29,297 bases of DNA from a virus. The notes beneath the pieces were generated by a model, which searched no databases, was not told where the DNA came from, and was given only the letters and a program-made list of their open reading frames with translations. Numbering within the stretch: the stretch's first letter is position 1; every line of letters starts with the position of its first letter. The DNA is taken from IMG/VR virus record IMGVR_UViG_3300009550_000046, positions 1 through 29,297 of that record. The stretch is one strand, 5' to 3'. Positions 7,572 through 12,835 of this stretch are shown one piece after another. A program made the translations under genes and the position numbers.

Positions 7572-7588
7572 CCCTATAAGGGTGTGTT
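7572..7588 (-). promoter_or_regulatory. Phage-type promoter-like sequence, leftward
   Basis: Read on the minus strand: AACACACCCTTATAGGG, followed by GGAGAGG. It differs from the plus-strand copy at 11167-11183 (AACACCACCTTATAGGG) only by a swapped CA/AC pair, 15 of 17 bases identical. The form, a C/A-rich recognition half followed by TATAGGG, closely parallels T7-family promoters (CACTATAGGG). It precedes the dense replication-gene run. It overlaps the stop codon of the 28-residue membrane peptide. Confidence 0.6.
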
Positions 7589-9679: not shown

Positions 9680-9710
9680 AAAAAGTACCCCTAGGAATCC
9701 CTAGAGGTAC
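9680..9710 (-). terminator. Intrinsic terminator
   Basis: On the minus strand GTACCTCTAGG, loop GATT, CCTAGGGGTAC, then TTTTTAAG. Eleven base pairs with one G-U. The stop codon of the 58-residue gene (9693-9691) lies inside the 3' arm, so termination is right at the gene end. Confidence 0.9.
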
Positions 9711-9867
9711 TGTTATAGTCTTTAGTAAGAGACTGAAAGTAAGATTCAGTTATCGTTCCTTTGTCTCTCTTTTGCAATAAATACCCATAGTATTGTCGTT
9801 GATAGCGAAGTTCGCATTCGACTACCATGACCCCATGAGTCATTGCATCTTCGTTGTTATCCATCAT
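9691..9867 (-). CDS. Hypothetical protein (58 aa)
   Basis: Starts MMDNNEDAMTHGVMVVECEL and has an aromatic, basic middle (RYQRQYYGYLLQKRDK). AAGGATAAAACTC precedes paired ATG codons; the first is used here. It is a single-gene unit, lying between the repeat/hairpin region at 9879-9982 and a terminator that overlaps its stop. Unrecognised, but the frame, ribosome site and terminator agree. Confidence 0.7.
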   Translation of the reverse strand: MMDNNEDAMTHGVMVVECELRYQRQYYGYLLQKRDKGTITESYFQSLTKDYNSTSRDS

Positions 9868-10082: not shown

Positions 10083-10511
10083 TTATTCGTCTTCGGCAGG
10101 TAGCCAAGGACAAACATCATCCACAGAAGCATCAACAACGCCAGGCAGTGTATGTGCAATAGCACAGAACCACCTATCGAGGTCATTATCACCAGCAACA
10201 CCAAGAAAGCAAGGCTTTCCTGATTTTGCAAAGGCTCTAATAGCCACAGCCATAGCTGTTTTAAGCTCGTCAGTTGGTAAACCATCGAACTTACACACAG
10301 GCTGAGTACCCTCAGTCGTTGTTAACACCCAAGCATTACTCTGCGTATTCCAACCTTTCAGTGTTGCTTCTGCATCGAGATAAACAGGCTTAGTACTCCA
10401 CTTAAAAGTAGAGTGCTTTTGTGGAAGACTGTACTTTCTTCCATACCTATCTGTCTTAACCAGATTATACACTTTAGGTATCACAGAGATAGCCATTTGT
10501 GTTGTGTCCAT
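10083..10511 (-). CDS. Hypothetical protein (142 aa)
   Basis: Unrecognised. Starts MDTTQMAISVIPKVYNLVKT and contains an alanine-rich helix (LKTAMAVAIRAFAKSGKPCF), ending acidic (DDVCPWLPAEDE). An ATG at 10529 is in frame, but GGAAAGGAGTTCTTTC places the start at 10511. It forms a single-gene unit with terminators before (10587) and after (9984). The base composition is somewhat less AT-rich than the neighbours. Its leader contains competing small stems (AGCTGA/TCAGCT, GAGAC/GTCTC). Confidence 0.75.
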   Translation of the reverse strand: MDTTQMAISVIPKVYNLVKTDRYGRKYSLPQKHSTFKWSTKPVYLDAEATLKGWNTQSNAWVLTTTEGTQPVCKFDGLPTDELKTAMAVAIRAFAKSGKPCFLGVAGDNDLDRWFCAIAHTLPGVVDASVDDVCPWLPAEDE

Positions 10512-10586: not shown

Positions 10587-10616
10587 TTAAAAAGAACCCC
10601 TATCGCTAGGGGTTCT
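10587..10616 (-). terminator. Intrinsic terminator with GCGA tetraloop
   Basis: On the minus strand GAACCCCTA, loop GCGA (GNRA type), TAGGGGTTC, then TTTTTAAG. Perfect 9-bp stem, starting six bases past the stop of the 52-residue gene. Confidence 0.92.
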
Positions 10617-10621
10617 CTTTG

Positions 10622-10780
10622 TTAATCCTTGAGTGATTTGATCATTGCTTTGACCACATCAACCTTTGGATCAGTTGTTGGGAGAGACTTAAGATAAGCC
10701 TTAAGGCTCTCAGCAGAATATTCGATCAATGAATATTCAGTGGTATCAGATTTATTCGTATCTGATTGTTGCTTTGGCAT
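10622..10780 (-). CDS. Hypothetical protein (52 aa)
   Basis: Reads MPKQQSDTNKSDTTEYSLIE then a helical, lysine-rich half (AESLKAYLKSL, VVKAMIKSLKD). AAAGGAGTTGAAC gives it an excellent ribosome binding site. It overlaps the zinc-ribbon gene by 29 bases and is followed at once by a terminator. Unrecognised; presumably among the first genes expressed from the divergent region. Confidence 0.75.
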   Translation of the reverse strand: MPKQQSDTNKSDTTEYSLIEYSAESLKAYLKSLPTTDPKVDVVKAMIKSLKD

Positions 10781-10937
10781 GTTCAACTCCTTTCATCATT
10801 AAACATTGAAAACATTTGAGCCGATCAACAGTATAAGTTTCACCATCTTCAACAGCAGTGATTTCCTTATAACCATCTTTGATCATCTCAGATCGACTAT
10901 GCTTTCGACCACAGTTGTCGCACTTTAATTTAGACAT
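10752..10937 (-). CDS. Small zinc-ribbon-like protein (61 aa)
   Basis: Starts MSKLKCDNCGRKHSRSEMIK and has a second knuckle, CFQC, about 35 residues on: CxxC-x(n)-CxxC as in zinc ribbons. Such small phage proteins may bind nucleic acid or host RNA polymerase, but nothing here shows which. It is the first gene of the leftward block, next to the divergent region, so it is probably expressed earliest. AAAGGAGAATGTT precedes the ATG. Confidence 0.8.
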   Translation of the reverse strand: MSKLKCDNCGRKHSRSEMIKDGYKEITAVEDGETYTVDRLKCFQCLMMKGVEHAKATIRYE

Positions 10938-10960: not shown

Positions 10961-11106
10961 CCTCGAAGCTAGAGGTCCAAGGGGAGGAACGACCTCTAGC
11001 CACGAGGTAAACTAAAGTCGAAGAGCCAGCGAAGGCGACAAGGGAGGAAACAAGTCGCCAACGCAAGCCCAAAGCCTCAGCCCAGGAGAGGGAGCTGAGG
11101 GGGTGC
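10961..11106. ncRNA. GC-rich element with three purine-loop hairpins
   Basis: Three hairpins in a row. (1) CCTCG, AA, GCTAGAGGTC (10968-10977), loop CAAGGGGAGGAAC, GACCTCTAGC (10991-11000), CA, CGAGG. (2) GCG, AA, GGCGAC (11034-11039), loop with AGGGAGGAAA, GTCGCC (11054-11059), AA, CGC. (3) CCTCAGC (11075-11081), loop CCAGGAGAGGGA, GCTGAGG (11094-11100). All loops are purine-rich with GGA, and the first two share a short internal loop of A residues. GC content is much higher than around it and there is no convincing ORF. Could be a structured RNA (strand unknown), a leader, or a DNA site for packaging or replication. Confidence 0.5.
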
Positions 11107-11166
11107 GAGAACCAGAAACAGGTACAACACACACACACATCTTTTTTAAACATAAACAAAGAGCTA

Positions 11167-11183
11167 AACACCACCTTATAGGG
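11167..11183 (+). promoter_or_regulatory. Phage-type promoter-like sequence, rightward
   Basis: AACACCACCTTATAGGG, followed by AATTCTATAAAG, 24 bases before the terminase ATG. It matches the leftward sequence at 7588-7572 at 15 of 17 positions and has the TATAGGG start of T7-family promoters. An AC repeat (11127-11139) and a T6 run lie just upstream. It would drive the virion genes if a cognate single-subunit polymerase exists outside this window. Confidence 0.6.
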
Positions 11184-11206
11184 AATTCTATAAAGAGGAC
11201 ATTAAG

Positions 11207-12835
11207 ATGACCGATAATAAACGAGTATTAGAATTATCTAAAGAATTATACAAACGAAAAAAACTAAAAGCATATGAAGAAAACTTCGAACTATTTGCAA
11301 ATGAACAACTAAGAATTATTACAAAAGATGTATCAAAGGGGTTTGTTCCTTTTCTTTTCAATGATGCTCAAAAATATATAAATGAAAAGTTAGAAGAACA
11401 AAGAAAGAAGACTGGTAAAGTCAGAGCTATTATTCTAAAAGCTAGACAACAAGGAATATCTACTTACTGTGCTGCTAGAGTGTTTTGGAAGACTTATTTT
11501 ACTCCGTATACTCGATCTGTCGTTATGGCACATGATAGTGCTACTTCAGATGCTCTATTTAATATGAGTCGAAATCTTATTGATAATATGGAAGATCCCC
11601 CAGCATTACAAAAATCAAACGCAAAGGAGATACTTTTTGAGCATAATAAGAGTGGTTATAGACTGTATACAGCAGGTTCGAAGGAAGCAGGTAGAGGAAC
11701 AACTCCGACTATCGCCCATTTATCTGAGGTCGGCTTTTGGCAATTCGATGAACAAATATTGGCTGGACTCTTCCAGGGAATTAGTCAGGAGAACGAGACG
11801 GAAGTTATTTTAGAAAGTACTGCTAATGGAGCTAGTGGAGAATTCTATAGACTCTTTCAGGGTGCTATGAGAGGCGAAAATGAATATATGCCTATATTTC
11901 TTCCTTGGCATATCACTCCAGAATATGCGAAGAAGACTCCTGAAGGGTTTGAATGTACAATAGAAGAATTTGAACTCATAGATAAATATGAGTTAACTGA
12001 TGAACAAATCTACTGGCGAAGATTAAAGCTAGGAGAATCAGGCGATAAAAAGTTTATACAAGAATACCCAAGTAGCTCTGAAGAAGCTTTCCTTGTAACT
12101 GGTAATACAGTATTTGATCAAAACATTATTTCTGATTATGTGATATCTGCACCTAATTATGAAAGAGAATACGATGAAAAGACTAGTTACTTTGAAGATG
12201 CAAGGGAAGGTCATTTACAAATATGGACACCACCTAAGTTTAAAGATAGATTTATAATAGGTGCTGATGTGTCGCTTGGTGTCGGTCAAGACTATTCAGT
12301 AGCTGTTGTGCTTAATATAGAGAGAGAAGTTTGTGCAGTATTCAGAGATAACTTTATTGACCCTAGTTACTATGGTGATATTTTATTTTACCTTGGGAGG
12401 TATTTTAATAATGCTTTACTCGCAGTAGAAAGCAACAGTCTTGGTGTAGCAACTTTAAATAGACTCAAGCAAATGAACTATGTTAACCTTTACTATCAAA
12501 CAAAGGCTGCTACACTATTGAATGAAGAAGGAACTAAACCTGGATTTAGAACTACTGTCTCTACGAAGCCTATGATAATAGGAAATCTTAAACGAGCAAT
12601 AGAAGAACAAGATATAGAAATTAATTCAGATACAATATTAGGAGAACTACGAACATATGTCGCTAATGAGAATGGTTCTACAAGTGCTCTTGCTGGTAAC
12701 TTTGACGATAGCGTTATTGCCTTAGCGATTGCATTAGAAGCATATAGAACACATCAACATAAGCTAACAGATGATAGAGTATCGTGGAAAGAAAAGACTG
12801 GTAATTTTGAACAGGAGGAAACTCAATGGCTGTAA
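11207..12835 (+). CDS. terL: Terminase large subunit (542 aa)
   Basis: DNA-packaging motor with ATPase and nuclease domains. The Walker A-type segment is LKARQQGIST (77-86). The Walker B position reads PTIAHLSEVGFW with Glu174 as the catalytic carboxylate; the usual Asp before it is replaced by Ser173. The coupling motif is ESTANG (203-208). The nuclease domain shows FIIGADVSLG (Asp354), AVESN (Glu408) and NFDDSVIA (Asp500/501). The length is normal. First gene of the rightward block, with GAGGACATTAAG before its ATG. The next gene starts inside its last codons. No certain small subunit was found. Confidence 0.95.
   Translation: MTDNKRVLELSKELYKRKKLKAYEENFELFANEQLRIITKDVSKGFVPFLFNDAQKYINEKLEEQRKKTGKVRAIILKARQQGISTYCAARVFWKTYFTPYTRSVVMAHDSATSDALFNMSRNLIDNMEDPPALQKSNAKEILFEHNKSGYRLYTAGSKEAGRGTTPTIAHLSEVGFWQFDEQILAGLFQGISQENETEVILESTANGASGEFYRLFQGAMRGENEYMPIFLPWHITPEYAKKTPEGFECTIEEFELIDKYELTDEQIYWRRLKLGESGDKKFIQEYPSSSEEAFLVTGNTVFDQNIISDYVISAPNYEREYDEKTSYFEDAREGHLQIWTPPKFKDRFIIGADVSLGVGQDYSVAVVLNIEREVCAVFRDNFIDPSYYGDILFYLGRYFNNALLAVESNSLGVATLNRLKQMNYVNLYYQTKAATLLNEEGTKPGFRTTVSTKPMIIGNLKRAIEEQDIEINSDTILGELRTYVANENGSTSALAGNFDDSVIALAIALEAYRTHQHKLTDDRVSWKEKTGNFEQEETQWL

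Follow-up and report, generated by a model that had tools for sequence, protein, structure and literature searches.

The terL locus, its hairpins and its conserved element

The window analysed here, a virus record of 29.3 kb taken in full, contains a GC-rich stretch at 10961-11106, between a set of leftward genes and the rightward terL gene for the terminase large subunit (11207-12835, plus strand). The terL product shares 62% amino-acid identity with TerL of Roseobacter phage CRP-7, the closest named phage by this protein, which hints at a marine Roseobacter-type host, and gave a weak, below-cut-off match to the Pfam profile Terminase_6N. A search with TerL for relatives returned 80 loci. On the left, the first gene (10752-10937, minus strand) encodes 61 aa with a normal adenine content of 36% and lies just outside the adenine-poor unit described below.

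At 59.6%, the GC content of 10961-11106 stands well above that of the whole window (34.8%) and of any other 146-nt stretch in it (at most 49.3%), so that a previous sequence-only reading was right to call it the sole GC-rich stretch. Compared with dinucleotide shuffles, the fold has z values of -6.1 on the plus and -8.1 on the minus strand, none of 200 shuffles being as good, and the minus strand folds better (-84.1 versus -70.3 kcal/mol). There are three hairpins, with loops and A-containing internal loops as previously described. On the minus strand, hairpin 1 (10961-11008) has an 11-bp core stem, the loop GUUCCUCCCCUUG and an outer stem across mismatches, with no U-run after it. Hairpin 2 (11023-11070, minus strand) has an inner 6-bp stem at 11034-11059, UUUCCUCCCUU in its loop and outer stems across internal loops, while hairpin 3 (11075-11100, minus strand) has a 9-bp stem and a pyrimidine-rich loop. 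The expectation that no named RNA family would fit was borne out by Rfam, which gave no match in the window at the gathering score; the best local hit, mir-627, scored 18.3 bits where 86 are required. A search for the exact loop and stem pattern returned six loci, and the two that were read (L085 and L087) looked unrelated.

Among the relatives, 12 of 39 loci have a hairpin in which a stem of 8 bp or more encloses a CCUCC or UCUCCC loop, as against 1.6 expected from shuffles, and 11 different stems surround this one loop type. Each of the eight inner stem positions of the CCUCC-loop hairpins shows several pair types, that is, covariation. Since the loop design recurs with different, covarying stems, it appears to be selected, as had been proposed together with compensatory changes as the way to check it. 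What is more, 26 of 124 stem pairs are G-U pairs in the minus-strand RNA only and would be C-A mismatches in a plus-strand RNA. The hairpins are therefore most likely structured RNA of the minus strand, part of a leftward RNA in which the stems covary and the loop is kept. These G-U pairs, with the leftward terminators and genes, speak against the earlier suggestion of a plus-strand RNA whose GGA loops bind CsrA/Rsm or serve as Shine-Dalgarno decoys, and point to minus-strand loops of the type UUCCUCCC. The same reading had also noted CCTCC on the minus strand, and here its strand was correct: the loops of the minus-strand RNA read CCUCC, and an anti-Shine-Dalgarno role for them is possible. 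It missed the better minus-strand fold, the scarcity of T on the plus strand, the conserved element to the right and the exclusion of adenine throughout the unit.

The hairpin feature runs on rightward into a conserved element (11099-11162) that adjoins the terL promoter. In most relatives whose sequence reaches upstream of terL, this element consists of a G-run, a GGTAC motif and a box ACATCTTTTTTA-ACATAAACAAAGA. The G-run on the plus strand (11099-11103; a C-run in the leftward RNA) has two G residues that are invariant in 44 aligned loci. On the minus strand at 11120-11129 lies TGTTGTACCT, the window's form of the conserved motif TTGGGTACCC, which resembles the Syn5 promoter sequence ATTGGGCACCCGTAA (PMC6834552). 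The conserved box TCTTTGTTTATGTTTAAAAAAGATGT (11137-11162, minus strand) is present in one exact copy within the window, and AAAAAGATGT is invariant in the 44 loci; the aligned loci were picked by the string ACATCTTTTT, so that its invariance is partly by construction, while the conservation of the flanking sequence is not. From this conservation the box is presumed to be a leftward promoter. A scan for sigma-70 promoters (-35 and -10 hexamers spaced by 16-18 nt) found no consensus site overlapping 11137-11162, and the box is unlike the phage's own CCCTTATAGGG promoter. In a sister group (L063-L077, TerL near 62% identity) that carries a similar element, the element of L076 has a GGGTACCC motif twice (1915-1945), at a spacing of about 20 nt.

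The likely terL promoter, of the phage RNA polymerase type with the core CTTATAGG, is at 11167-11185 on the plus strand. CCCTTATAGGG recurs in the contigs of relatives, as it does before terL in the window, and a T7-like RNA polymerase gene was found in one related contig; the CCCTTATAGGG/CTTATAGG motif is likely to be the promoter of the phage's T7-like polymerase. Within (A)CRCCCTTATAGGG, CTTATAGG is seen in the window at 7573-7580 (minus) and 11175-11182 (plus), and it recurs in contigs of relatives, with sites in L090 at 3880 and 8001.

Extent and ends of the adenine-poor unit

In many relatives the plus strand has hardly any T to the left of the box, and hence the minus (coding) strand has hardly any A. 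In the window this unit is short and spans 10964-11119 (minus strand, in RNA sense), as placed by a changepoint fit and the T count; the three hairpins make up the 3' part of this unit, which lies between the conserved box and about 10964. The changepoint falls at d = 173 from the ACATC box, with 6.9% A before it and 30.7% after. The 156-nt unit has 11 T on the plus strand, the lowest number in the window, the next lowest comparable stretch having 20.

Read in RNA sense, the unit of the relatives contains 4.5% A across 18 kb in 41 loci, as compared with roughly 30% beyond it. The median length of the zone in these loci is 473 nt, and long versions reach about 1.1 kb. The zone starts at the conserved box: in 42 loci A amounts to 5% at position 17, 0% at positions 18-22 and about 0-2% up to position 32. 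In the contigs of nine relatives (about 290 kb), 100-nt segments with six or fewer T or A were found only at the element or within about 1.1 kb of it. Depletion is slight or absent in a few relatives (L015, L016 and L054). In the sister group a T-poor zone measures about 110 to 890 nt in several members and is slight or missing in others. Six isolates with related polymerases, and CRP-7, whose TerL is related as well, showed no zone of this kind in the portions that were read, except for brief isolated stretches. In most of the leader RNAs, the A residues that remain are base-paired no more often than in shuffles.

Second A-poor patches were observed in L048 (d of about 650-1200) and in L021, L038 and L056 (d of about 650-1130), with normal DNA or the start of a gene between them and the element, which might reflect an insertion that displaced an A-poor gene, or a unit that ran on further. 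About 500 nt of A-free sequence in L035 is absent from L016 (the same as L027), from which it seems that the unit is acquired or lost in one piece.

A two-segment fit was used to place the far end of the zone. In 13 of 38 loci a leftward intrinsic terminator precedes this end, with 0-20 nt between its U-run and the end, as against 0.53 loci expected for random positions (none of 5000 permutations), and the zone end correlates with the position of the first terminator (Spearman 0.87, n = 24). Some CCUCC-loop hairpins of the relatives are themselves terminators by form, with a U-run. Zone ends carried no plus-strand A-run such as a rightward terminator would give. The other 25 zones, the window's among them, end without a detected terminator, and five zones hold one well before their end. 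By the evidence of sequence, then, the unit has a defined start at the box and, in a third of the loci, an end at a terminator, and these two boundaries suggest that it is a leftward transcript. Further leftward terminator-like hairpins lie between the left genes of the window, at 10593-10616 and 9684-9711, and would imply extra promoters or read-through.

Genes inside and beyond the unit

Short versions of the unit, such as that of the window, are essentially non-coding. The long versions contain genes with 0-3% A, whose homologues beyond the unit are richer in A. At fourfold-degenerate sites the unit genes of L003, L014, L040 and L053 have no A in about 80-110 sites, as compared with 21-35% in several homologues beyond the unit; the means of the two groups are 3.6% within the unit and 18.7% beyond it. 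L014 is intermediate, its fourfold sites being free of A yet its codon positions 1 and 2 having 15-16%. In this gene family A rises with distance, with Spearman coefficients of 0.42 for all A (p = 0.05) and 0.56 for fourfold sites (p = 0.007), a moderate trend.

When the A-free genes are compared among themselves, dN/dS is 0.14-0.39, while against intermediate versions it is 0.6-0.8. The former values make the A-free genes look real and under purifying selection, which persists even though their proteins are nearly confined to about 10 amino acids. Pairwise comparison of homologues shows G, C and T in the place of A. L016 and L035, at 90% identity, differ by 19 losses and 19 gains of A, so that the pressure is not visible in that pair, and L014 and L031 (87% identity) have 38 A in common and 17 not.

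The window's member of this family (10083-10511, minus strand) has a normal A content of 27%, whereas its counterparts that lie within the unit in relatives are A-free. The family (alignment A1) consists of small proteins ending in [WFYH]FC[AG], with F and C invariant. The A-free gene family had no Pfam match and no convincing PHROG match, and an AlphaFold model of a family protein (mean pLDDT 80) matched no fold significantly; the strongest of the weak hits, OB-fold proteins among them, had E values of 0.07 or worse.

Explanations and comparison with known systems

The explanation that we favour is selection against adenosine in the RNA or during its synthesis. A leftward transcript would start at the conserved promoter-like element beside terL and include the hairpins, and selection would keep the stretch from the element to the transcript end nearly free of adenosine. 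In the window this transcript would be about 155-175 nt long, essentially non-coding, and end in the hairpins with their UUCCUCCC loops; in relatives it would be longer, with its genes rewritten in A-free codons. The selective force could be that this transcript is blocked or destroyed at A during infection: the polymerase might arrest because ATP is lacking or because of an adenine chain terminator, or a ribonuclease specific for A might degrade the RNA. Only transcripts without A would then be made or survive. That the unit is transcribed, at what stage, and why it avoids A are points that we infer. We give slightly better than even odds to the account as a whole, with hairpins in a leftward transcript, A selected out up to its end and a cause at the level of the RNA or its synthesis. 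More tentatively, and with somewhat less than even confidence, we propose that adenosine is actively excluded across the unit, the proteins of its genes being limited mostly to about 10 amino acids, which would reveal a host defence or infection condition that halts or destroys RNA at A, and the phage's answer to it.

An unlikely alternative is mutagenesis linked to transcription, in which an enzyme acting on the transcript or the displaced strand changes A to other bases and the unit is no more than its target. The loss of A is indeed specific for base and strand, its bounds are transcript-like, A in homologous genes varies with their position, and the replacement of A by all three other bases (G, C and T) is a feature shared with diversity-generating retroelements. 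However, no reverse transcriptase (RVT_1) was found in 16 contigs, 15 from relatives and one unrelated, most of them fragments. Deamination alone would yield only G, and C is not depleted. Furthermore, many A are kept between L014 and L031, and losses equal gains between L016 and L035. Ongoing fast mutation was considered and rejected, the latter pair showing no asymmetry.

A regulatory leader, in which the UUCCUCCC loops control the left genes as hairpins of the anti-Shine-Dalgarno or attenuator kind and low A is a by-product, would fit the preservation of loops while stems change and the terminators with U-runs among such hairpins; it leaves the A-free coding regions and the lack of A at synonymous sites unexplained, and we consider it quite improbable. 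There is a slim chance that the element serves as a replication origin, with the A-poor RNA as its primer or as an origin RNA. The element does sit where gene direction and GC skew switch, and a relative encodes a T7-like RNA polymerase, but this would not explain why synonymous sites at a distance of hundreds of bases have lost A, and the hybrids of an A-free, U-rich RNA with DNA should be weak. A packaging (pac) or terminus site adjoining terL, raised in the sequence-only reading with contig ends as a check, is very improbable: the sequence beside terL is conserved and several contigs do begin just upstream of terL, yet their starts are scattered rather than shared, as assembly breaks would give, and the A-free genes are not accounted for. 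Finally, that the template strand is kept free of T so that UV-induced pyrimidine dimers do not stop transcription in sunlit water can scarcely be credited and was rejected, for although T is lost only on the presumed template strand, and in marine phages, the remaining T is rarest (1.7%) between purines, where it cannot dimerise, and commonest (10%, partly in Shine-Dalgarno sequences) between pyrimidines, and CC is not avoided (observed/expected 1.06).

The phages with this transcript-like unit are a group of uncultured marine phages. To our knowledge, no transcription unit is defined by one absent base and bounded on either side by sequence signals, and we know of nothing that explains the purging of one base from RNA. 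Phrase searches of open-licence PMC papers yielded no description of such an A-free unit. If selection on the RNA is the cause, this would point to a so far undescribed attack on phage transcripts directed at A, or to a phase of infection that is poor in ATP; if mutation is the cause, it would point to a new adenine-directed mutator. In either case a direct experiment becomes feasible once a member of the group is cultured.

Several known systems share features with the unit. In diversity-generating retroelements, too, the adenines of one strand are changed to any base in a defined stretch, although replacement of A by G, C and T is expected under selection as well. The unit differs from them in that the A-poor zone is anchored at its 5' end and A once removed stays absent; the contigs searched for a reverse transcriptase were viral, and this candidate was rejected when none was found. 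Like CsrA/RsmA-binding sRNAs of the CsrB and RsmY type, the unit has several hairpins with similar loops; on the other hand, GGA is present only on the strand that is apparently not the RNA, and Rfam gave no match. RNAs of the S. aureus RNAIII type pair with Shine-Dalgarno sequences through C-rich loops. The UCCC- and CCUCC-rich loops of the unit's hairpins recall these, whereas the exclusion of A reaches far beyond the loops. With regard to phage RNA polymerase promoters (T7, Syn5, KP34), none matches the 26-nt box at 11137, while the T7-like polymerase of a relative, the recurrence of CCCTTATAGGG and the similarity of TTGGGTACCC to the Syn5 sequence are points in common. Lastly, the A-poor unit differs from intrinsic terminators and leader or attenuator RNAs in going without A right up to the terminator, and in the window's hairpin 1, which lacks a U-run. 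It resembles them in its GC-rich hairpins, which lie at the end of a leader and upstream of genes and are followed by U-runs in several relatives.
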